Origin: Burkholderiales bacterium
GTDB lineage: Bacteria > Pseudomonadota > Gammaproteobacteria > Burkholderiales > Burkholderiaceae_C
Assembly (NCBI GenBank): GCA_947381415.1
Contig: CANCVB010000009.1
Coordinates: 26,627-90,626, forward strand
Reading direction: 5' to 3'
DNA length: 64,000 bases
The notes under the pieces were generated by a model. It did no database searches. It was not told where the DNA came from and was given only the letters and a program-made list of their open reading frames with translations. The position numbers were made by a program, and so were the translations under genes. Of the stretch, positions 8,048 to 31,584 are shown in pieces. Position 1 is the first letter of the stretch. The number at the start of each line of letters is the position of its first letter.

Positions 8048-8509
8048 TCAGTTAGAGGTGTTGTTGTTATTGCCAGCAGACGGGGCAGCAGGGCTTGTTG
8101 CAGGGCTTGCCGCCGGTGCCATGGCAGGCTTGCTCGGCGCAGCAGCAGGGTTGCTGCCGGCAGGGTAAACAGGCGGTGCGCCAACTTGTTGCATTTCGCC
8201 GCGGAATTCACCGCCACGCTCGATTTGAATTTGCGAATACTCCAGCTTGCCAGAGACTTTGCCGGTGGCGCGGATGTGCAAATGGTCACGGCAGTGAATG
8301 ACTTGGTGCATCTCACCTTCAACTTCAATGCTACGTGCAGTGACTTTGCCCGTGATTTTTCCAGACTGACCGATGAAGATTTCTTCTGCCGTCAACTCGC
8401 CATCCACAGTGCCGTAAATCGTGGCTTTCTTTGGCACATTGAGCGTGCCCTTGAAAGTCACGCCGTTGCCAATCACCAGATTGTTGGATTGATCAATATT
8501 GGTTGCCAT
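8048..8509 (-). CDS. Bactofilin (polymer-forming cytoskeletal protein) with Ala/Pro-rich tail
   Basis: VIGNGVTFKGTLNVPKKATIYGTVDGELTAEEIFIGQSGKITGKVTARSIEVEGEMHQVIHCRDHLHIRATGKVSGKLEYSQIQIERGGEFRGEM beta-helix repeats. Confidence 0.92.
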   Translation of the reverse strand: MATNIDQSNNLVIGNGVTFKGTLNVPKKATIYGTVDGELTAEEIFIGQSGKITGKVTARSIEVEGEMHQVIHCRDHLHIRATGKVSGKLEYSQIQIERGGEFRGEMQQVGAPPVYPAGSNPAAAPSKPAMAPAASPATSPAAPSAGNNNNTSN

Positions 8510-20353: not shown

Positions 20354-21223
20354 TCACGTGCCAGGAATGAATTTTTGGAACAAGCGACATGCCAAGTAAG
20401 CCAATACACAGGCAACCACCCAAGGCCAAGCACCGCCACTGAAAGCCACCGCCGCCGCATCAAGCAAGGCACAAGCCGCAATCAACTGTGCGACCGCTCG
20501 GGGGACATCGCCGCCTTGGCGACGCAATGCCAACAACCGCACCGCCAAGATATTGGCCACCGCCAGCAGCAACAAGGTCAGCAGGGCCAAGGGATTGACA
20601 ACAAAGTTAACCACAAAGATGGCAAAAGGCAAAACCAAAATCAACAGCGGCCAAAGTCGCTCTATGCGATCAAGGCTTTCTTGCTTAGCGGCATAGGTCA
20701 AGCCCGCGATGTGCGCAAAAACAGCCAACATGCCCCACAGCAAGGTGTCAGGTGTGTGCGGCACACATACCCAAGCCGCCAAGGCATAAACCAACGCACG
20801 GCAAGTGCCCATGATGACTGGCGAAAACACATTGCCTTTGTGCCAAGCGTTATACAAAAGAATAGCCAAACTCAATGCCGCCCCTGCTTGCACCGCCAGC
20901 GTGCCATAAGGCGCGATGATGACGATACCCCCCATCAACATGGCGCAACCCAAAGCTGAAACCGCCTTGGCTGAAATTTGTCCAGAGGGTATGGGCCGAT
21001 TGGGGCGTTCACGCGCATCAATGTCGGCATCGAATGCATCGTTGAGATACATACCCCCGGTGTAAAACAAGGTGATGGCCAACATCACCCACAACAGGGT
21101 GCTGACATCGGCCGCATGGCCAGACAAAAAGGCACCCGCCAAGACATTGGTCCAGACAGTGGGCAAATTGGAGACTCGGCCAATTTTCAAATAGGTGGCC
21201 AACCCGGTGCGCTGCGTATTCAT
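20354..21223 (-). CDS. eboC: UbiA-like prenyltransferase EboC
   Basis: GRVSNLPTVWTNVLAGAFL, YTGGMYLNDAFDADIDARERPNRPIPSGQIS (NDxxDxxxD); multi-TM. Confidence 0.9.
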   Translation of the reverse strand: MNTQRTGLATYLKIGRVSNLPTVWTNVLAGAFLSGHAADVSTLLWVMLAITLFYTGGMYLNDAFDADIDARERPNRPIPSGQISAKAVSALGCAMLMGGIVIIAPYGTLAVQAGAALSLAILLYNAWHKGNVFSPVIMGTCRALVYALAAWVCVPHTPDTLLWGMLAVFAHIAGLTYAAKQESLDRIERLWPLLILVLPFAIFVVNFVVNPLALLTLLLLAVANILAVRLLALRRQGGDVPRAVAQLIAACALLDAAAVAFSGGAWPWVVACVLAYLACRLFQKFIPGT

Positions 21224-22422
21224 GCCAGTAAAACCTTTTTCACAAACAACAGTTCACGTGCAATGGCTTGCGCCTTGGAGTCTGTTTTCAGCGCATCGGG
21301 CAAGACATCCCACGTGTAGGTTTCGACTTCCAGATGCGAAGAAAACCCTTCACGCTTGCAAGCCTCTAAGGTTTGTAGCAACTGGGCTTGGGTGGTCGAG
21401 ATGCTGCCCGCATCATGCAAGAAAACAGGGACATGGCAATGCACACGCCACTCACCTTGGGCTTGACCCGCATGAAAAGCGCTCAAGGCTTCAGGTAAAT
21501 CCACAAAACGCTTTAACGCGCCAGACTGCTCTACAACCACTTGATGCAAGTAAACCGCGTCGTCAAAGCCTTGCACCGTGGCCAGATGCTCTGAACCCAT
21601 ACGCCCTATCCGCACTGCACTGCTGAGTTGGATTTTTGCAATGGCAATATCAGCTTGTCTTAGGTCACGCAGGGCCTGGGCGGGGTCTTCAAATTCGACC
21701 GCACTGTGGCAGACATCAAAACACACACCCAAATGCGCCACCAAGGCTTGACGGGCCCTCTCGGCAGAACACGCCAAGAGCTTCGCCAACTCAGCCACGG
21801 CCTCTTCGCTACGCACATAGGTTTGGATGAAATGCAAAGCTTCTTGGGTGGTCTCCAAATAGCAAGAAGGTTCGGGCTCTAAGGCCAAGGCAATGTGTTT
21901 TCCTGTTTGGTGCGCTGTCTGCACCATGTGGGCCACGCACTGCATCAAGTGACGCAACACAGAGGACATCGCGTCTGGGGCATCGGCTGCATGGCGAAAA
22001 CCGACCGGCACGGTAGAAATACTGCCATCCACGCCTTCAGGCAACAACGCAGCCAAAATATCGATACACGCCAAGGTGTAACGCACCCGCTCTGTGTGTG
22101 TCCAATCTGGGGCGTAAACATCTTGCTTGACAGGCACCCCATGGAAGGTGCCGTAGGGGAACGCATTGAGGGTAAAGACATAGGCGTTGAGTGACTCCAA
22201 CTGTGCCTGTAAAGCCTGTAATGCTTGAGGCTCATGGAGGCTGAAAGCAGCCTGACCGGACAAGCGCAACCCTATACCCATGGGAGCGCCGTCGGCAACG
22301 GCGTCACGAATGGCTGGGACAAATTCGTTGAGACTCTGGCTTACCGCATCCCAACTCTCGCCTGCATGAATATTGGTGCAGTAAGTGAGATGCGGTTGAT
22401 GGCTAAGCCGTTTGAGTTGCAT
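21220..22422 (-). CDS. eboE: Xylose isomerase-like TIM barrel protein, EboE (metabolite traffic protein family)
   Basis: HLTYCTNIHAGESWDAVSQSL, NAFPYGTFHGVPVKQDVYAPDW, ALEPEPSCYLETTQEAL, GVCFDVCHSAVEFEDPA, SSHLEVETYTWDVLP. Confidence 0.88.
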   Translation of the reverse strand: MQLKRLSHQPHLTYCTNIHAGESWDAVSQSLNEFVPAIRDAVADGAPMGIGLRLSGQAAFSLHEPQALQALQAQLESLNAYVFTLNAFPYGTFHGVPVKQDVYAPDWTHTERVRYTLACIDILAALLPEGVDGSISTVPVGFRHAADAPDAMSSVLRHLMQCVAHMVQTAHQTGKHIALALEPEPSCYLETTQEALHFIQTYVRSEEAVAELAKLLACSAERARQALVAHLGVCFDVCHSAVEFEDPAQALRDLRQADIAIAKIQLSSAVRIGRMGSEHLATVQGFDDAVYLHQVVVEQSGALKRFVDLPEALSAFHAGQAQGEWRVHCHVPVFLHDAGSISTTQAQLLQTLEACKREGFSSHLEVETYTWDVLPDALKTDSKAQAIARELLFVKKVLLA

Positions 22423-22426
22423 GGCA

Positions 22427-23638
22427 TCAAAGGTGCTGTTTCAGCCAAGCAATGGATTCGGTCACCCAGGTGTCATTGATTTCATGGACCTCAATGCCCT
22501 TGCCAATGCCCGCCAGCAAGGTAATGGTGAGTTCACCACCCAAGTGTTCGCGGAAATCTGCCAAACCTTGCAGAACAGCCAATTGACCTTTGGCGTTACG
22601 CGTTTCAAGTTGGTTGTTCCATAGCTTGAAACCCAAGGACGTGAGCAAGCGGTGAACTCGCAGGTCTTCTCCCGCAGGCAATAAGCCAGCCAATACCGAG
22701 TAATGCGCATCCAAGGCGATGCCGATGGCAACCGCCTCGCCGTGGCTGAGTTCGTGCTGGACTGTCATGCGTTCCAACTTGTGCGCAACCCAGTGCCCGT
22801 AGTCCAATGGTCTGGCCGACCCAGACTCGAAAGGGTCACCGCCCAAGGCGATCTGGTTCATGTGAATCTGGGCTGATCGCTTGATCAAATACGACAAAGG
22901 GACCGTCTCAAAGCGAGCCAAGGCTTGCACATTGTTTTCAAGCCAAGTGAAGAAAGTGCCATCTCGAATCAAGGAGACTTTGACCGCCTCAGACATGCCG
23001 CAACGCTTTTCACGCTCAGGCAAAGAATCAATGAACACACCGTCGTTGATGACAGCCCAAGGTGGCGCAAAAGTACCCACCAAGTTCTTCAAACCCAACC
23101 AGTTGACGGCATTTTTCACGCCCACGCCGCTGTCGTCTTGCCCAAGAACCGTGGTGGGAAAGCGAATGTGCCGAACACCGCGGTGAAAGATAGCAGCGGC
23201 ATAACCCACGGCATCCAAAATCGCGCCACCCCCAATGGCCAAGGCATAGGAGTGCCTGTCAATCGCTTTGTCTGACAGTATTTTTAGCAGCTTAGAAATC
23301 AATTCAGGGTCGTTTTTGCAATCTTCTCCACCTTGCAAGATGACCGCTTCACCCACCAGTTCGATGTGTTCGGCATGGGCCCCGAAGTACGCCTGAATCT
23401 GTCCCAGCAAGTTGGGTAAGGCTTGGGCAACGCCACCATCGATAAAGACGGCTACACGGTGGCGCTTGTGTGCTTCACGACGGCGCAAAACATCCAGCAA
23501 ATGGGTATTGATGGGATCAAAAGCATGCCGTGTAAACACCACAGGGTAGGCGTACTCCACCGCAAAACTTTGCACCTGCACGCTGTCGCTCACAGTGTCT
23601 GGCGCTAGCGTTTCAATGGATGGTGCTCGGGCATTCAT
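22427..23638 (-). CDS. eboD: 3-dehydroquinate synthase-like sugar phosphate cyclase, EboD
   Basis: GGGAILDAVGYAAAIFHRGVRHIRFPTTVLGQDDSGVGVKNAVNWLGLKNLVGTFAPPWAVINDGVFIDSLPEREKRCGMSEAVKVSLIRD. Start at 23638 has an upstream AGAGGAAG. Confidence 0.88.
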   Translation of the reverse strand: MNARAPSIETLAPDTVSDSVQVQSFAVEYAYPVVFTRHAFDPINTHLLDVLRRREAHKRHRVAVFIDGGVAQALPNLLGQIQAYFGAHAEHIELVGEAVILQGGEDCKNDPELISKLLKILSDKAIDRHSYALAIGGGAILDAVGYAAAIFHRGVRHIRFPTTVLGQDDSGVGVKNAVNWLGLKNLVGTFAPPWAVINDGVFIDSLPEREKRCGMSEAVKVSLIRDGTFFTWLENNVQALARFETVPLSYLIKRSAQIHMNQIALGGDPFESGSARPLDYGHWVAHKLERMTVQHELSHGEAVAIGIALDAHYSVLAGLLPAGEDLRVHRLLTSLGFKLWNNQLETRNAKGQLAVLQGLADFREHLGGELTITLLAGIGKGIEVHEINDTWVTESIAWLKQHL

Positions 23639-23707
23639 AACAGCTTCCTCTTTTTGAATTCTGGGGTAAGGGGTAATGACATCGGTCAAGGATGGGGTTG
23701 CGCTCAA

Positions 23708-25114
23708 TCAATTCGCCTCTTGGCTGACAGGGGACGAGACGCCAAAAATATGTTGCAAAGCCATGGCTTTGATATCCGTGGCAGACACAGTGTCAGCAAG
23801 CAAATGGGGCATGTCGCTCATGACCAAGGGACCATCCAGCGGGTCGTCGGTGGGGCGACCATGTGAGCCTTTGACCAAATGGGCATCCAAAGGAATGACG
23901 TCGAGCAACATGCGAAAGCCCAGTATTTTTTTCAATAATTTCCACACAATATAAAGCTTGGGAAATGCCAACTTAGGGTCGAGAAACAACTCAACGGGGT
24001 CATACCCTGCTTTTCGATGAATTTCTACTGTGCGTGCAAAGTCTGGGGCCAATGCATCATCTAACCAAAAATAATAGGTAAACCATGAACGCGCATCTGA
24101 CATAACCACCAACTCGCCGCTTCTCTCATGGGCAATATGGTGCGCGGCTTGTTCATTTTTATCCCAAACCGATTCAACGCCAGGAACAGCGAGCAGCAAG
24201 GCTTTGACCTGAGGAATCAGCGCAGGGTCACGCACATAGACATGGGCAATTTGGTGATCGGCCACCGCAAACACTTTGGACGTCGTCGGGTCAAGCATTT
24301 CATGCCCATCTTCCATGCGGACATTAAGCCACCCTTGGCGACGAATCTCTCGGTTAATGTGAATGGGTCGATCAACCTCGGTGATACCGTATTCGGACAA
24401 AACCATGACACGGCGACCATGTTTTTGCGCGAAATCGATCAAATCACCCACGACCGCATCGACCTCTCGCAAAGACTTGGCCACAGCAGGATGGTTTTCG
24501 TTGGGACCAAAACGCTGCATATCGTAATCAAGGTGCGGCAAATAGACCAAGGTAAGCGTTGGGTCAAAGTCGGTAATGGCCAATTCGGAGGCCTTGGCGA
24601 TCCAACGCGTAGAGGCGATATTGGTATTGGGCCCCCAAAAGTTGAACAAGGGGAATTTGCCCAAACGTGCGCTTAGCTTCTCTCGCCAATCGGTAGGAAC
24701 GGTAAAGCAGTCTGGCAACTTTCGACCATCGGCTTTGTAAATCGGCCTGGGCGTCGCACCGTAGTCATGCGATGACGCCATGTTGTACCACCAGAACATA
24801 TTGGCGCAGGTAAAGCGCGGGTCTCTTGCTTTGCCAGCTTCCCAAATTTTTTCACCGTTCACCAGTCGATTGGATTGACGCCAAAACCAAATCTCTTGCA
24901 AATCGCGAAACAGCCATCCATTGGCCACCACACCCGTTTGGTCTGGTGCCAAACCCGTCATGAACGTGGCCTGGGTCGTGCATGTCAATGCAGGCAAGGT
25001 TGTGGTCAATGGTCGCATGCCACCTTGACGGGCGAATGCAGACAAGCGCGGGGTGTTGGGGCCCAGGTGCCGAGGCGTTAATCCCACCACATTAAGAACA
25101 ATCAACGGTTGCAT
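23708..25114 (-). CDS. eboF: Type I phosphodiesterase / nucleotide pyrophosphatase (alkaline phosphatase superfamily), EboF-like
   Basis: TTLPALTCTTQATFMTG nucleophile region, VYLPHLDYDMQRFGP, VMVLSEYGITEV, AVADHQIAHVY metal-ligand motifs. Confidence 0.85.
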   Translation of the reverse strand: MQPLIVLNVVGLTPRHLGPNTPRLSAFARQGGMRPLTTTLPALTCTTQATFMTGLAPDQTGVVANGWLFRDLQEIWFWRQSNRLVNGEKIWEAGKARDPRFTCANMFWWYNMASSHDYGATPRPIYKADGRKLPDCFTVPTDWREKLSARLGKFPLFNFWGPNTNIASTRWIAKASELAITDFDPTLTLVYLPHLDYDMQRFGPNENHPAVAKSLREVDAVVGDLIDFAQKHGRRVMVLSEYGITEVDRPIHINREIRRQGWLNVRMEDGHEMLDPTTSKVFAVADHQIAHVYVRDPALIPQVKALLLAVPGVESVWDKNEQAAHHIAHERSGELVVMSDARSWFTYYFWLDDALAPDFARTVEIHRKAGYDPVELFLDPKLAFPKLYIVWKLLKKILGFRMLLDVIPLDAHLVKGSHGRPTDDPLDGPLVMSDMPHLLADTVSATDIKAMALQHIFGVSSPVSQEAN

Positions 25115-25143
25115 AAAAAACCCAATGCCGGTGAGTAAGCTGT

Positions 25144-26256
25144 TTAGCGAATCACGTTAGCGTCTACTTGACGGGTGAGCACTTTGGGCTCTTGGCCACG
25201 CAACACTGAGTTGCCCTCGTAAAGCGTGCGCTGGTCGATGGCCTGGGGTTTGAGCCAATGGTCCTCTTGCATTTCACCGTTCAAACCGTAAATGGCCAAG
25301 GCATTTTTATAAACCACTTGGTGAATGATGTCTGCAGAGATGCCTTTATCTGCCATTAAACGAGCGGTTTTGGGCACAGCCAAAGGATCAGAAACGCCCC
25401 AATCACAAGACGAGTCAACTATGACGCGCTCAGAGCCATATTGCTGAACCAAAGCAGCCAAGCGTTCGTTGCCCATTTTGGTTGAGGGGTAAATCGTAAA
25501 AGCACACCAATACCCTCGATCGAGTACCTCACGCACGGTTTCCTCGTTGTTGTGATCAATCACGCAACGGGCTGGGTCAAAGCCATGCTCTTCCAAAACA
25601 TCCATGGTGCGTTGCGTACCACGTGTTTTGTCGCGATGCGGCGTGTGGATCATGATGGGAAGATCGTATTCTTTGGCCATCTCAATTTGGGCGCGCAAAG
25701 CTTTGTCTTCTTGCGGCGTTTGCTCGTCATAACCAATTTCACCAACAGCAACCACGCCCTCTTTGGTCAGGTAACGCGGCAAGACAGCCAAAACCTGCTC
25801 AGCCAAGGCTTCGTTGTTGGCCTCTTTGGGGTTCAAACCAATGGTGCAGTAGTGACGAATCCCAAACTGGCCCGCACGAAAACGCTCAAAGCCCGTGATG
25901 GTTGAAAAGTAATCGACAAAGGTACCGACGTTGGTTCGCATTTGACCCAACCAAAAAGCCGGCTCAATCACAGCCACGATGCCTGCTTGGGCCATGGCTT
26001 CGTAGTCGTCAGTGGTGCGCGCGGTCATGTGGGCGTGGGGATCAATCATCATGCCCAAGCCACCGGTTGGGATTGCACGAAAATCTTTTTTGAAGCCTTC
26101 TAAACGACTGGCGTCATCCATGATTTTTTGCAACATGCTGGGCGATAAAGCGCCATTGCAACAAGGACAAGCAACCGACTTTCCGGCAAACATTTCTTCG
26201 ATAGCGGAAGCATTGACCTGAACATCAGATCCTGTAGATGGGGTTGGGGTCGTCAT
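25144..26256 (-). CDS. eboB: TatD-family metal-dependent hydrolase, EboB
   Basis: MIDPHAHMTARTTDDYEAMAQAGI, GEIGYDEQTPQEDKALRAQIEMAKEYDLPIMIHTPH, CVIDHNNEET, IVDSSCDWGVSDPL. Confidence 0.87.
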   Translation of the reverse strand: MTTPTPSTGSDVQVNASAIEEMFAGKSVACPCCNGALSPSMLQKIMDDASRLEGFKKDFRAIPTGGLGMMIDPHAHMTARTTDDYEAMAQAGIVAVIEPAFWLGQMRTNVGTFVDYFSTITGFERFRAGQFGIRHYCTIGLNPKEANNEALAEQVLAVLPRYLTKEGVVAVGEIGYDEQTPQEDKALRAQIEMAKEYDLPIMIHTPHRDKTRGTQRTMDVLEEHGFDPARCVIDHNNEETVREVLDRGYWCAFTIYPSTKMGNERLAALVQQYGSERVIVDSSCDWGVSDPLAVPKTARLMADKGISADIIHQVVYKNALAIYGLNGEMQEDHWLKPQAIDQRTLYEGNSVLRGQEPKVLTRQVDANVIR

Positions 26257-26371: not shown

Positions 26372-26755
26372 TCAAGGTTTTGGACGAGATTTGTTGGGCT
26401 CAGCGGTTGACTTCACTTGGTCCGCAGGGTGTTGGGTCATTTGCCCCATAAATTGACCACCGCGCTCGATCTCTATTTCTGCGTAATCCAACTTGCCGGA
26501 CACAGCCCCGTTACGGTGAATCATGATGTGCTCATGGCAAACAATGTTTTGGGCCAGTGATCCGTGAACATCGATGGTGTGGGCATCTATGCTGCCTGAC
26601 ACACTGCCTTGTACACCGATGTGTAAATCATGCACCGTGATTTCACCCGAAACCACGCCATTGACAGTGGCACGCCCAGGAGCTGTGATCGAGCCAACAA
26701 AAGTGACACCTTCGCCAATGATCAAACTGCTTGCTGAGGGAGTTGTATCAGCCAT
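26372..26755 (-). CDS. Bactofilin (second copy in window)
   Basis: IIGEGVTFVGSITAPGRATVNGVVSGEITVHDLHIGVQGSVSGSIDAHTIDVHGSLAQNIVCHEHIMIHRNGAVSGKLDYAEIEIERGGQFMGQM. Confidence 0.9.
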   Translation of the reverse strand: MADTTPSASSLIIGEGVTFVGSITAPGRATVNGVVSGEITVHDLHIGVQGSVSGSIDAHTIDVHGSLAQNIVCHEHIMIHRNGAVSGKLDYAEIEIERGGQFMGQMTQHPADQVKSTAEPNKSRPKP

Positions 26756-27006
26756 GTCATACCTTTGAATTAAAAATGACGGGAAAAATTAACCTTCCAA
26801 TAATTCTAATGAGAAAATTAGCCTAAATCGCCATGAGAATTATCAAAAAATAAGTTTTGTTGCATTATTTTGAATGCTAAATTATCCATATCAAAAGCTA
26901 AGCTTAGAAATGGTTGATTTACCACCTCAAGTCAGTCGTTTTCGATCCGATTAAAGTGGAACAAGTCTTGCTTGTAAACTATGGAAACTATTAGATTTTT
27001 TGACAA

Positions 27007-27525
27007 ATGAATACAAAAGGAATGACGAAATACCTGATCATGGTGATGTTGATGACCTGCATCAACATCCCATTGTTCTTCTATTCCCGATCATTTTTGA
27101 CACCGAAGCACCTTACAGAAGACGTTTCAGCAACCGAGCAAGGCTTGGCGTCAGATAAACCATCGCACCACGACGCCGAACCTGCCGATCACAGCAAAAA
27201 TGCATCTGCCCAAGACCAGTCTGGAGAAAGTCTGGCTTTGGAGCCCAAACCAGAACCGCCGTCTTTGGCCACTTTATACCGTCCGCCGCTTCTTGGAAAA
27301 TGCAAAAAATTGTTTGAACGTTTCATGAGACAAACGGACCCCGACAAACCTTTTCGCGCATTTGTTTACAGTTTTGATGGGGAAACCGCTTACTGCGCGG
27401 GCGCCGTCACTGACAAAAGCCAAGAAAAAGCCGAAGAAATTGCCAAACGAGATTGCGAAGAAAACCAAGCCAGCACAGGCAAGTATTCTCCTTGTCGAAT
27501 TTACACATCAGAAGAAACTAACTAG
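27007..27525 (+). CDS. Hypothetical membrane-anchored protein with Cys-containing C-terminal domain
   Basis: N-terminal TM TKYLIMVMLMTCINIPLFFYS; acidic linker; C-terminal DGETAYCAGAVTDKSQEKAEEIAKRDCEENQASTGKYSPCRIYTSEE. Confidence 0.65.
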   Translation: MNTKGMTKYLIMVMLMTCINIPLFFYSRSFLTPKHLTEDVSATEQGLASDKPSHHDAEPADHSKNASAQDQSGESLALEPKPEPPSLATLYRPPLLGKCKKLFERFMRQTDPDKPFRAFVYSFDGETAYCAGAVTDKSQEKAEEIAKRDCEENQASTGKYSPCRIYTSEETN

Positions 27526-27533
27526 GTAAAGCC

Positions 27534-28679
27534 ATGGATTGCGTTGCATGTGGAAAACCCATTTCAATCACCGCCAAATTTTGCGGTAAATGTGGCGCGC
27601 CCGCCAAACGAAGCGCCAAGCCGATTGAAGCAGCTGTCTCAACAGACACCGTCGCAAACACCACTGCGCCGCTTGAGACACCTATGGTGGACGATCTCAC
27701 CTTCAACTTGAGCCCCCCGGAGCACATGGCAGACATGCCTGACATTGACTTGGATTTGGCGCCCAAAGTGACAGAACCTGCTGTGGCGGCACCTCCTCCA
27801 CCTGTCTGGCCAGCCAGTCCACCGGTTCTTGCCGCAGCACCGAAAGAAACCCTGCCATCGGTTGACATTGAAAGACTGAAAGCACTGGAACAAACCCAGC
27901 AAGAAATCAAAAAGACGCTGGAAAAACATTCATTGTTATTGGACTTTATCTCGCTGGCATCCCAGCAGCAAAGCCATCAACAAACCCAACCCGACCCACT
28001 CGAACCCCTTATCCATCAAGTGGCGGAGCAACAAAACAGCTTGCAAAGCCAGCTCACCCAATTGGCTGCTTTACTTTCACAAAATGAAGCGCAACAGCAC
28101 TCACAGCGAATGCCCGATGAGTTCAAACTGCAACTTGAAAAACAAAAAATTGAGTTACATAAATTGATGTCACAAAGCTTTGCCCAAGGTCTGGCTCAAA
28201 GCACTGAAAACCTTCAAGATGCTGAACATGAGGCATTGGAACAACTGGAAAAACGCTTAGAAAACTACCACCAAGCCGCTCAGCAAAGTCTGGAAAAAAA
28301 CATGGGCGCTTTGGCCTCTGGCATGAGTGAGTTAAAAACCCAATTGCAAGCTATCCAGAAAAAATCAGCTGATAAGCCCACAGCTCGCAACCCATCCTCC
28401 CCCGATACAGACGGAGATGGTGGCAACTTTATGATTTTTATCATTGGTTTGTTGTGTGGTTTGACCGTTGTGCTGAGTTCTTTGGCGATATACAACTTCC
28501 TCTCACACGAACCCGCTAAGGCAGATGCACCCAATAAAGTTGAGAAGCACGACAGCGGCGATCACACCGAGGCAGCAGACAAGCACGCTGGACCAGCCCC
28601 CGACAAGCATGAAGATGCCGCTGATAAACATGGCGCTTCCGACAAGCATGAAGCGCCTGCCAAAGCCAAGTCTCACTGA
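27534..28679 (+). CDS. Zinc-ribbon / coiled-coil / TM protein with His-rich DKH-repeat tail
   Basis: CVACGKPISITAKFCGKCGAPAK zinc ribbon; Gln-rich coiled coil; TM FMIFIIGLLCGLTVVLSSLAIY; tail DKHAGPAPDKHEDAADKHGASDKHEAPAKAKSH. Confidence 0.8.
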   Translation: MDCVACGKPISITAKFCGKCGAPAKRSAKPIEAAVSTDTVANTTAPLETPMVDDLTFNLSPPEHMADMPDIDLDLAPKVTEPAVAAPPPPVWPASPPVLAAAPKETLPSVDIERLKALEQTQQEIKKTLEKHSLLLDFISLASQQQSHQQTQPDPLEPLIHQVAEQQNSLQSQLTQLAALLSQNEAQQHSQRMPDEFKLQLEKQKIELHKLMSQSFAQGLAQSTENLQDAEHEALEQLEKRLENYHQAAQQSLEKNMGALASGMSELKTQLQAIQKKSADKPTARNPSSPDTDGDGGNFMIFIIGLLCGLTVVLSSLAIYNFLSHEPAKADAPNKVEKHDSGDHTEAADKHAGPAPDKHEDAADKHGASDKHEAPAKAKSH

Positions 28680-28704
28680 TGTACGCAAATTCTGAAAGCC
28701 CCAC

Positions 28705-29364
28705 ATGATTTGCACCAGTTGCTATTTCATCAACCCCAGTGAGAATGTTTTTTGCCAAAACTGCGGCTCGCAACTGCCGCATGTGCAAAACGAAAAACCG
28801 AACATTTCCCCGCTGATTTTGGCCAACACGCTTGACAACAGTTCGTTGTTGATTTCGCGTGGCCCCTGGGAGATGCGGCTGGACTTGTCCATCCCCTTTT
28901 TGTTGGTGGCATTGGCCATTTATCTTTTCACCGGGAATCAGGTCTATGCCTTGACCGCGGTGGGATTGGGATTGGCCTTTGCTTTGTACAAAACGCACGA
29001 TACCCAGCAAATCATCAGCCAAAGCATACCGGTGGAATTGATCAACAAGACCATCATTGCTTACGGCCCGGCCAACACCTCCAATCGCTTTTCTCTGCCG
29101 ACAGGGGTCTTGTATTTGCTTTCAGATGGCTTGTATTTCAAATCCTTCGACAGCAATGAAGATATTTCATTCATTCACATCGAAATTTCATTCACTGAAA
29201 GTGCCAAACGCATCAAAGGACTGTCATTGTTTGCCCATTGGCATGAAATTCAAATGAACAATGGCATGAATGAGCAATTCACTTTCACCGTCCAAAATGC
29301 TGGCGAGTGGATGTTATTGATGAAAGTATTGCGCTCAGACATGTTCAAAAAACCGACGGTGTGA
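28705..29364 (+). CDS. Zinc-ribbon membrane protein with C-terminal soluble domain
   Basis: CTSCYFINPSENVFCQNCGSQLP; TM FLLVALAIYLFTGNQVYALTAVGLGLAFALY; globular C terminus. Confidence 0.78.
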   Translation: MICTSCYFINPSENVFCQNCGSQLPHVQNEKPNISPLILANTLDNSSLLISRGPWEMRLDLSIPFLLVALAIYLFTGNQVYALTAVGLGLAFALYKTHDTQQIISQSIPVELINKTIIAYGPANTSNRFSLPTGVLYLLSDGLYFKSFDSNEDISFIHIEISFTESAKRIKGLSLFAHWHEIQMNNGMNEQFTFTVQNAGEWMLLMKVLRSDMFKKPTV

Positions 29365-29365
29365 T

Positions 29366-30706
29366 TCAAGCCGCAAACATGCGCTGCATTTCTTGACGCA
29401 CGCGATAAGCTGGCAATTGTTTGTCCATGGCCACATCGTCCCAGCACAATGACTGGCCCTTTTTGACGGGTCGAACAAGCTTGACTTGGTGCGCCAACCC
29501 AAGCGGCAAACCACCCATCCGGGCAGAAGTGCTGGCGGGCAATAACTTGCCCCACACGGTATAGCCCCCTTCGCCATCCAATATTTCACCCGCTTGCAAA
29601 TCACGTTTGGCGGTGGCAACCACATCGGCATTCCAACTTTGTGCAACACCTGTAGCTTCACCGCGCAAAGCCACACTGGCCACCGACATACCGACCTCCA
29701 GTCCAATCAAATGCCATCGTTTGTAAAGGGTGAAGTAACGACCGGACGGATCGGTATGCGCGTTGTACTCTTCAAAACAATGTTTGATGTAGTCGGTCTC
29801 GGCCTCTACTGTGACCCAAACGCCCATGCGAATGTCATAAGGAATCACTCGGCCATCGGCCTCCAAAGAAGAGATGACCTCAACCATGCCCTTGTGCTCG
29901 AGCACCCCACCTTCGCTGCGAGGACGGGTGACAAAAGGAATATCTTCCACACTGGCAGGTGGGTAGAGCAAGCCATTGCTTGGCACAGTCAAGCCTGTGG
30001 CATTCGAGACGGCAGTGCTTTCAATGCTGGGCTTAGAGCCGTCCAAAAAGCTGTTGAACATTTTGGGATTCAAACCACCGCGACTGGCTTGCTCGGGGGT
30101 TAATCCGTAGTTGCCCCACACCGTGTCTGGGGTCGATTCACAAAAATGCGGCAACCATTTATGTCCCCGACCTGCCGCCACCACTGGGAAACCACAGGTG
30201 CGGGCCCAATCAACCAAATCACAAATCAAAGCGGGCTGATCACCAAATGCCAAGGAATAAACCACACCCGCTTGCGCGGCTTTGTGGGCCAGCAAAGGGC
30301 CACAAAATGCATCAGCTTCCACCGTGACATTCACCACATGTTTGCCATGTTCAAACGCAGCGAGGCAGTGCTCAACTGCCGCAATAGGGTTGCCAGTACA
30401 TTCGACAACGACATCAATGCGCGGGTCACTCACCAGCGCATGCCAATCTTCAGTCAGAAATGTCAATCGACTGTCAAACGCATGGTCTAAAGATGTGGCT
30501 TGGGATTGGTGAACTGGCCACCCTACCCGCGCCAAATTTGTTTGGGCACCCGACAAAGACAAGTCAGCGATGCCTGCCAAATGAACGCCCGGGGTTTTGG
30601 GCACTTGCGCCAAATACATGGCACCAAATTTTCCAGCGCCAATCAGCGCGACACGTATGGGCTTGTTGTCGCGCTCACGCTGTTGCAGTTGAAGGTACAA
30701 ACTCAT
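29366..30706 (-). CDS. NAD(P)-dependent oxidoreductase with SAF domain (homoserine dehydrogenase-like)
   Basis: RVALIGAGKFGAMYLAQV Rossmann motif; VVECTGNPIAAVEHCLAAFEHGKHVVNVTVEADA; C-terminal AKRDLQAGEILDGEGGYTVWGKL SAF-like. Confidence 0.83.
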   Translation of the reverse strand: MSLYLQLQQRERDNKPIRVALIGAGKFGAMYLAQVPKTPGVHLAGIADLSLSGAQTNLARVGWPVHQSQATSLDHAFDSRLTFLTEDWHALVSDPRIDVVVECTGNPIAAVEHCLAAFEHGKHVVNVTVEADAFCGPLLAHKAAQAGVVYSLAFGDQPALICDLVDWARTCGFPVVAAGRGHKWLPHFCESTPDTVWGNYGLTPEQASRGGLNPKMFNSFLDGSKPSIESTAVSNATGLTVPSNGLLYPPASVEDIPFVTRPRSEGGVLEHKGMVEVISSLEADGRVIPYDIRMGVWVTVEAETDYIKHCFEEYNAHTDPSGRYFTLYKRWHLIGLEVGMSVASVALRGEATGVAQSWNADVVATAKRDLQAGEILDGEGGYTVWGKLLPASTSARMGGLPLGLAHQVKLVRPVKKGQSLCWDDVAMDKQLPAYRVRQEMQRMFAA

Positions 30707-31584
30707 GCGGCTTTTTGGGTTTGGTCAAAAGGAACATCCGAGGTCACCAAAGCACTGGCAGGCAAGCCCTTGGCCCATGGCAAATCCACAGGGTAGGACT
30801 TGGACAAGCAATCGTCAGGCAGGCATTCAATAGGTGTGAAGTCGCGGTGAGCGATGAATTCAGGACGCTTGTGGCGACGAATATGGTTGCTCACGGCGCA
30901 CAAGCTCAGGTACACGCTGACACGGTTCCAGGGTGACAAATTGCTGGCAGACGCATGCACCAAACAGCTGTGAAACAAAATCATAGAACCCGCAGGACCT
31001 GTGGGGCTGACAATCCCACCTTGCTTGCCGCCTGCTCGCTCAACGAGCTGACCAATCAGGTCGTTGTCAACTGTCCACAACGGGTAACTGGTGGTAGTCA
31101 GATCGTGCTTGGCATCCACCACCCCTTTTTTATGGCTGCCGGGAATGAACATCAATGGGCCATTGAATTCATTCACATCGTCAAGAAAAATAGCCACGTT
31201 CATCGCCCGCTCTGTGGGCATCATGTCGTCGTTGAGCCAAGTGCCATAGTCTTGGTGCCATTGCCAAACATCGCCTTCAAACGCCATCTTGCCGTTGATC
31301 TTGAACTGGTGCATGTACAACTTTTCGCCAAACAAATCTTCGACGGGCTCAATCATTCTTGGATGCCTGGCCAATTTGGCAAAAGGTTCGCTGTACAAGT
31401 GGGCTGCAAAATTGGTGCGTACCGCGTCCTTGCCTTTTTCTCGCACATTGAATGCTTCTCGGCGGCTGTAGAGCTGAGGCACCTCCTCGACCAACACACG
31501 GGTTTCGTCTGGCGTGAACAGACCAGGGAAAAACAAATAGCCTTCTGTGTCAAATTGAGCGTGTTGTTCTGGGGTGAGTTTCAT
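30703..31584 (-). CDS. Phytanoyl-CoA dioxygenase (PhyH) family Fe(II)/2-oxoglutarate dioxygenase
   Basis: GYLFFPGLFTPDETRVL, VWQWHQDYGTWLNDDMMPTERAMNVAIFLDDVNEFNGPLMFIPGSHK, H-x-D and distal HASASNLSPWNR. Confidence 0.88.
   Translation of the reverse strand: MKLTPEQHAQFDTEGYLFFPGLFTPDETRVLVEEVPQLYSRREAFNVREKGKDAVRTNFAAHLYSEPFAKLARHPRMIEPVEDLFGEKLYMHQFKINGKMAFEGDVWQWHQDYGTWLNDDMMPTERAMNVAIFLDDVNEFNGPLMFIPGSHKKGVVDAKHDLTTTSYPLWTVDNDLIGQLVERAGGKQGGIVSPTGPAGSMILFHSCLVHASASNLSPWNRVSVYLSLCAVSNHIRRHKRPEFIAHRDFTPIECLPDDCLSKSYPVDLPWAKGLPASALVTSDVPFDQTQKAA

Follow-up and report, generated by a model that had tools for sequence, protein, structure and literature searches.

What are the three membrane-protein genes that lie divergent to a bactofilin gene in a Burkholderiales genome, do they form one functional unit, and is the bactofilin its core? 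The locus is part of a 64,000-nucleotide stretch of DNA, here called the window, and the first-pass annotation, made from the sequence, read it as an undescribed envelope-associated complex nucleated on a bactofilin scaffold. The four open reading frames of that reading, a bactofilin and three same-strand genes, are all present in their places and orientations. The bactofilin gene (26372-26755, minus strand) encodes 127 aa, and genes A (27007-27525), B (27534-28679) and C (28705-29364), all on the plus strand, encode 172, 381 and 219 aa, respectively. The intergenic gap between the bactofilin and A (26756-27006, 251 bp) is as AT-rich as had been remarked, with a GC content of 0.303 against 0.52, a level as low as this being found in 0.05% of same-size segments of the 64 kb. 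A and B are 8 bp apart, B and C are 25 bp apart, and many orthologous loci have a 4-nt overlap between A and B, so the three closely spaced or overlapping genes have an operon-like arrangement.

Among 61 genomes searched, A is present in 23 and C in 22, all of them from the same genus, and neither protein has any match in the 24 other families sampled within this search. One genome (G013) has A without C, and its contig terminates within B. All genomes with intact contigs keep the A-B-C order on a single strand. A genus-wide profile search, in which matches (E ≤ 4e-46) are sharply divided from non-matches, detects A in 41 of 84 genomes of the genus; A-B-C is intact in about 40 species, and its order is unchanged although the surrounding genes represent at least six unrelated neighbourhoods. 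Conserved co-occurrence in related genomes, on which the first-pass annotation had staked its proposal beforehand, was thus found, A, B and C being adjacent wherever the contig permits. C and the C-terminal domain of A both have a dN/dS of about 0.03, which indicates strong purifying selection. Given this low ratio and the intact recurrence in about 40 species, A, B and C are genuine genes and not chance ORFs, and the sequence comparison shows them to be a conserved operon.

Outside the genus, profile searches of about 400 other Burkholderiales and about 370 genomes across the class revealed no relative of the same build. The full-length C profile gave only short zinc-ribbon matches in other genera, and trimmed profiles were therefore adopted; trimmed C had a single weak match of 44 residues in 368 other genomes of the class, trimmed A retrieved two distant DUF4189-like proteins from other genomes of the class, and no relative of C was found in the plasmid collection. 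On an FlhA tree of 40 genomes, the presence of A-B-C requires 3 changes versus 9.1 for shuffled labels, and this agreement points to mainly vertical inheritance of the operon with a deep gain or loss. The genus is known mainly from lake metagenome-assembled genomes (MAGs), and its motility has been little studied. Further loci from a scan of public genomes come nearly all from freshwater MAGs labelled Comamonadaceae, Burkholderiales or Limnohabitans sp.; a few of the records that carry the locus have names that look mislabelled, among them MAGs entered as Rickettsia typhi and Bordetella parapertussis (L111 and L107).

Protein A has a single N-terminal transmembrane (TM) helix (residues 4-30), in agreement with its earlier description as a TM-anchored protein, followed by a variable linker (31-88) predicted to be disordered and by a C-terminal domain of about 80 residues (89-172), in which C99, C130, C150 and C163 are invariant. 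Its structural model has a mean pLDDT of 75, with most domain blocks at 89-96, and a structure search gave no significant match (best E 0.36). The domain resembles DUF4189 (PF13827) in its Cys/Ala/Gly pattern, and 7 of 23 A orthologues match that family weakly (best E 0.046), all below the gathering score, while the window's A has no match. Unlike DUF4189 proteins, A has a membrane anchor, a long linker and an extra N-terminal invariant cysteine.

Protein B begins with a zinc ribbon of the CxxC...CxxC type, which scores 24.9 bits for Zn_Ribbon_1 (cut-off 25), and continues with a long polar, Pro-rich stretch, a single TM helix at about 303-325 with conserved G305 and G309, and a charged tail. 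Two CxxC knuckles are found in both B and C, and the four cysteines are invariant in all aligned orthologues, although the Pfam zinc-ribbon scores of the window's B and C lie just under the cut-off. The B orthologues range from 338 to 707 aa, with a middle part of variable length. B had been described as a zinc-ribbon, coiled-coil and TM protein with a His-rich tail: the ribbon and the TM helix stand, the coiled coil is probable (heptad periodicity at p = 0.056, with weak matches to the coiled coil of ZorA), and the His-rich tail is a feature of the window's clade, the tails of other clades being K/E/S-rich. Metal binding by this tail was considered and dropped, since the tail composition is not conserved. 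Membership in the Zorya system was also rejected. The weak PADLOC match to the MotA-like ZorA (E 2.6e-4) is confined to the probable coiled-coil region of B, with none in A or C; B has no MotA/ExbB membrane domain, and no other Zorya part, including ZorB, is present.

Protein C, earlier called a zinc-ribbon/TM protein, indeed has a zinc ribbon and two TM helices (54-104), and it also carries a predicted PH-superfold domain (117-215). The seven-strand barrel of this fold is predicted at residues 117-197 and its C-terminal helix cap at 199-215. The best Foldseek match has an E-value of 2.9e-5, and the 28 matches at E ≤ 0.001 are mostly PH or PH-containing proteins, for a model of moderate confidence (mean pLDDT 73.7). 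The likeness to PH-superfold domains lies in the predicted fold; unlike known PH domains, that of C has no Pfam PH or bPH match and shares its chain with a zinc ribbon and a TM hairpin. Sequence searches of NCBIfam, Pfam and PDB assign A, B and C to no family beyond the zinc ribbons, and no named system of this composition was found in the family libraries or the open-access literature searched. The reading as an undescribed, envelope-associated gene set was in this respect well placed, as the TM proteins are conserved together and match no named system.

A feature of the AT-rich gap that the first-pass annotation missed is a putative sigma-28-type flagellar promoter reading into A. In 16 aligned gaps of the window's clade (clade I, with C identity of at least 77%), a near-invariant CTCAAGT-N14-[CT]CGAT lies about 80 nt upstream of A, and the rest of the gap is mostly poorly conserved. 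The E. coli sigma-28 consensus is TAAAGTTT-n11-GCCGATAA (PMC2859248). A promoter of the FliA-regulon type, TAAA-N15-GCCGATAA at the usual distance from the gene, is matched before A by TCAA-N15-TCCGATTA (26927-26953, plus strand), which begins 80 nt upstream of the A start. A search of the window's own genome with the pattern gave 13 matches versus 3 for a reversed control, and four of them are in the flagellar cluster. With a C/T wobble, well-placed sites precede four genes that Pfam confirmed as fliS, flgM, fliD and flaG, and in a clade-III genome the same motif precedes its fliS.

A relaxed pattern of fixed spacing, T[CTA][TA]A-N15-N[CT]CGAT, precedes A-B-C in 29 of 36 loci, a count that is partly circular because the pattern was devised after the alignments had been viewed. 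It lies 75-87 or 125-162 nt before the unit, is present in clades I, IIa, IIb, III and IV, and has a background of 0.2-3% in dinucleotide shuffles and of 2 among 341 other genes of the same loci. The case for a promoter rests more firmly on the sharing of the motif with flagellar genes of this genome and on its recurrence in clades with unrelated surroundings. The -10 part alone is recognisable in a small group of three loci (L126, L128 and L139), and in L132, L136, L137 and L138 no motif passes the relaxed pattern. A sigma-70 scan of the region gave no excess over shuffles. In clade III the motif precedes an additional gene, X, which sits between the sigma-28-type site and A. Gene X encodes 130 aa with no Pfam match, and is found next to A-B-C in this clade only, in 7 of 84 genomes (for example at L140 3122-3514, L142 3080-3472, L143 3035-3427, L144 104-496 and L145 3045-3437).

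FliA and FlhA are encoded in nearly all genomes of the genus. The window's genome has both FliA (contig C1, 221795-222445) and a flagellar system (FlhA, C1, 217422-219389). One genome that carries A-B-C (G472, a draft reported as 96% complete) has neither FlhA nor FliA above the cut-off; the two genes are close together, and so one missing contig could explain both gaps. The operon resembles the FliA class-3 operons of the same genome (fliS, fliD, flaG and flgM) in promoter motif, spacing and start-codon distance, and, on sequence grounds, its membership in the FliA regulon is strongly supported. Unlike these flagellar operons, it sits outside the flagellar cluster, and sequence searches link its products to no known flagellar, stator or chemotaxis family. 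Accessory operons under FliA control are a known kind; the products of this one are undescribed.

The reading that we favour, as the probable one, is that A, B and C form an inner-membrane complex of the FliA regulon that is accessory to the flagellum. A-B-C would be a late (class-3) flagellar-regulon operon transcribed by FliA from the promoter in the AT-rich gap, and its products would be synthesised when the filament and the other late flagellar products are. By a topology proposed from helix count and cysteines, A would use a flexible tether to hold a domain, probably stabilised by disulphides, in the periplasm, B would present its zinc ribbon and coiled coil to the cytoplasm with its tail outside, and C would carry a cytoplasmic zinc ribbon and the PH-fold domain on a two-helix membrane hairpin. 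The operon structure and the co-inheritance of the genes make it likely that the three proteins form one complex, which most likely would serve the flagellum; it might, for instance, be a scaffold or regulator that connects cytoplasm and periplasm and is associated with the motor or the pole. More tentatively, this may be an undescribed envelope-spanning accessory of the flagellar motor, a complex of zinc-ribbon, PH-fold and disulphide-domain proteins that arose in one freshwater Burkholderiales lineage and was coupled to a bactofilin of its own in one sublineage. An anonymous gene island becomes a testable motility gene set with a sigma-28-type promoter. If it acts at the motor or pole, it would represent a lineage-specific accessory added to a machine with an ancient core, and bacterial zinc-ribbon and PH-fold membrane proteins would be shown in such a role.

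For the complex, a site of action at the flagellum is somewhat favoured over one elsewhere in the motile cell. FliA regulons include genes without a role in the flagellum itself, and belonging to the regulon does not determine what a gene does. A-B-C is missing from half of the flagellated genus and is therefore not needed for flagella as such; this absence, like the G472 draft, speaks against a core flagellar role. The correlation between the operon and flagella is uninformative, as nearly the whole genus has FlhA. The absence from half of the genus, and the position of A-B-C outside the flagellar cluster, lend some weight to a FliA-controlled unit with a task apart from the flagellum, such as remodelling of the envelope, sensing of surfaces or second-messenger signalling. 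However, no signalling or enzymatic domain was recognised in A, B or C, a structural role fits them better, and we hold a function outside the flagellum to be the less likely of the two, at roughly one chance in a few.

The complex built on an adjacent bactofilin filament that was first proposed is now improbable. The bactofilin itself is secure (PF04519, E 2.3e-20, 73.1 bits against a gathering score of 27.9); the 2.5-Mb genome of the window has six bactofilin genes, and the other one in the window lies at 8048-8509 (minus strand). The bactofilin beside A-B-C adjoins A in the window and in 15 named clade-I loci, 16 in all, and it keeps this place despite changing genes on its far side, where some loci have the ebo genes and others YaeQ or different genes; downstream of C, clade-I loci have either DRL and PhyH genes or, immediately, a TPR gene. 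Bactofilins can be linked to motility, and BacE and BacF of Bacillus subtilis are required for flagellar hook and filament assembly (PMC4627819). The likeness is that here a bactofilin adjoins a motility-regulon operon in one clade; unlike in the BacE/BacF setting, it is missing from the locus in the other clades with A-B-C. In these, A-B-C lies among unrelated metabolic genes: aldolase-II and FAD-enzyme genes upstream with a multi-rhodanese protein gene downstream, flavin reductase and alpha/beta hydrolase, esterase and UDP-sugar dehydrogenase, sulphate permease, or methyltransferase and TctC receptor. To our knowledge, the BacE/BacF system has no genes like A-B-C.

In the clades other than that of the window no bactofilin was found beside A-B-C, yet the sigma-28-type promoter is there; the nearest bactofilin relatives in these clades are in other contexts, and the locus yielded no sigma-28 site directed towards the bactofilin. 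A bactofilin-nucleated complex is thus not supported as a rule. A tree of the bactofilins proved too unstable for orthologues to be assigned. Being beside A-B-C in the window's clade only, the bactofilin is an occasional, clade-specific companion of the operon, which may or may not take part in its function. Chance neighbours with a chance motif and no functional unit, for which nothing speaks beyond the low-complexity linkers, are very improbable against co-occurrence in about 40 species and at least six contexts, the low dN/dS in the folded parts and the enrichment of the motif.

Several features of the surroundings were also observed. Next to the bactofilin, an ebo-type cluster (20354-26256, minus strand) encodes EboE (NF035939, E 1.9e-137) and candidates for an AroB-like EboD, a PF01663 phosphodiesterase (EboF), a TatD-like EboB and probably EboC; it adjoins the bactofilin only in some close relatives. 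Convergent with C are genes for a DRL-type oxidoreductase with a SAF domain and a PhyH-family dioxygenase (29366-31584, minus strand), the latter ectoine-hydroxylase-like below the cut-off; both genes are absent downstream of C in L116 and L124. The genome's flagellar cluster contains, near fliD and flaG, an ORF of 1086 aa (L201, 12646-15903, minus strand) with 46 ALTTAQ repeats (PF20080).
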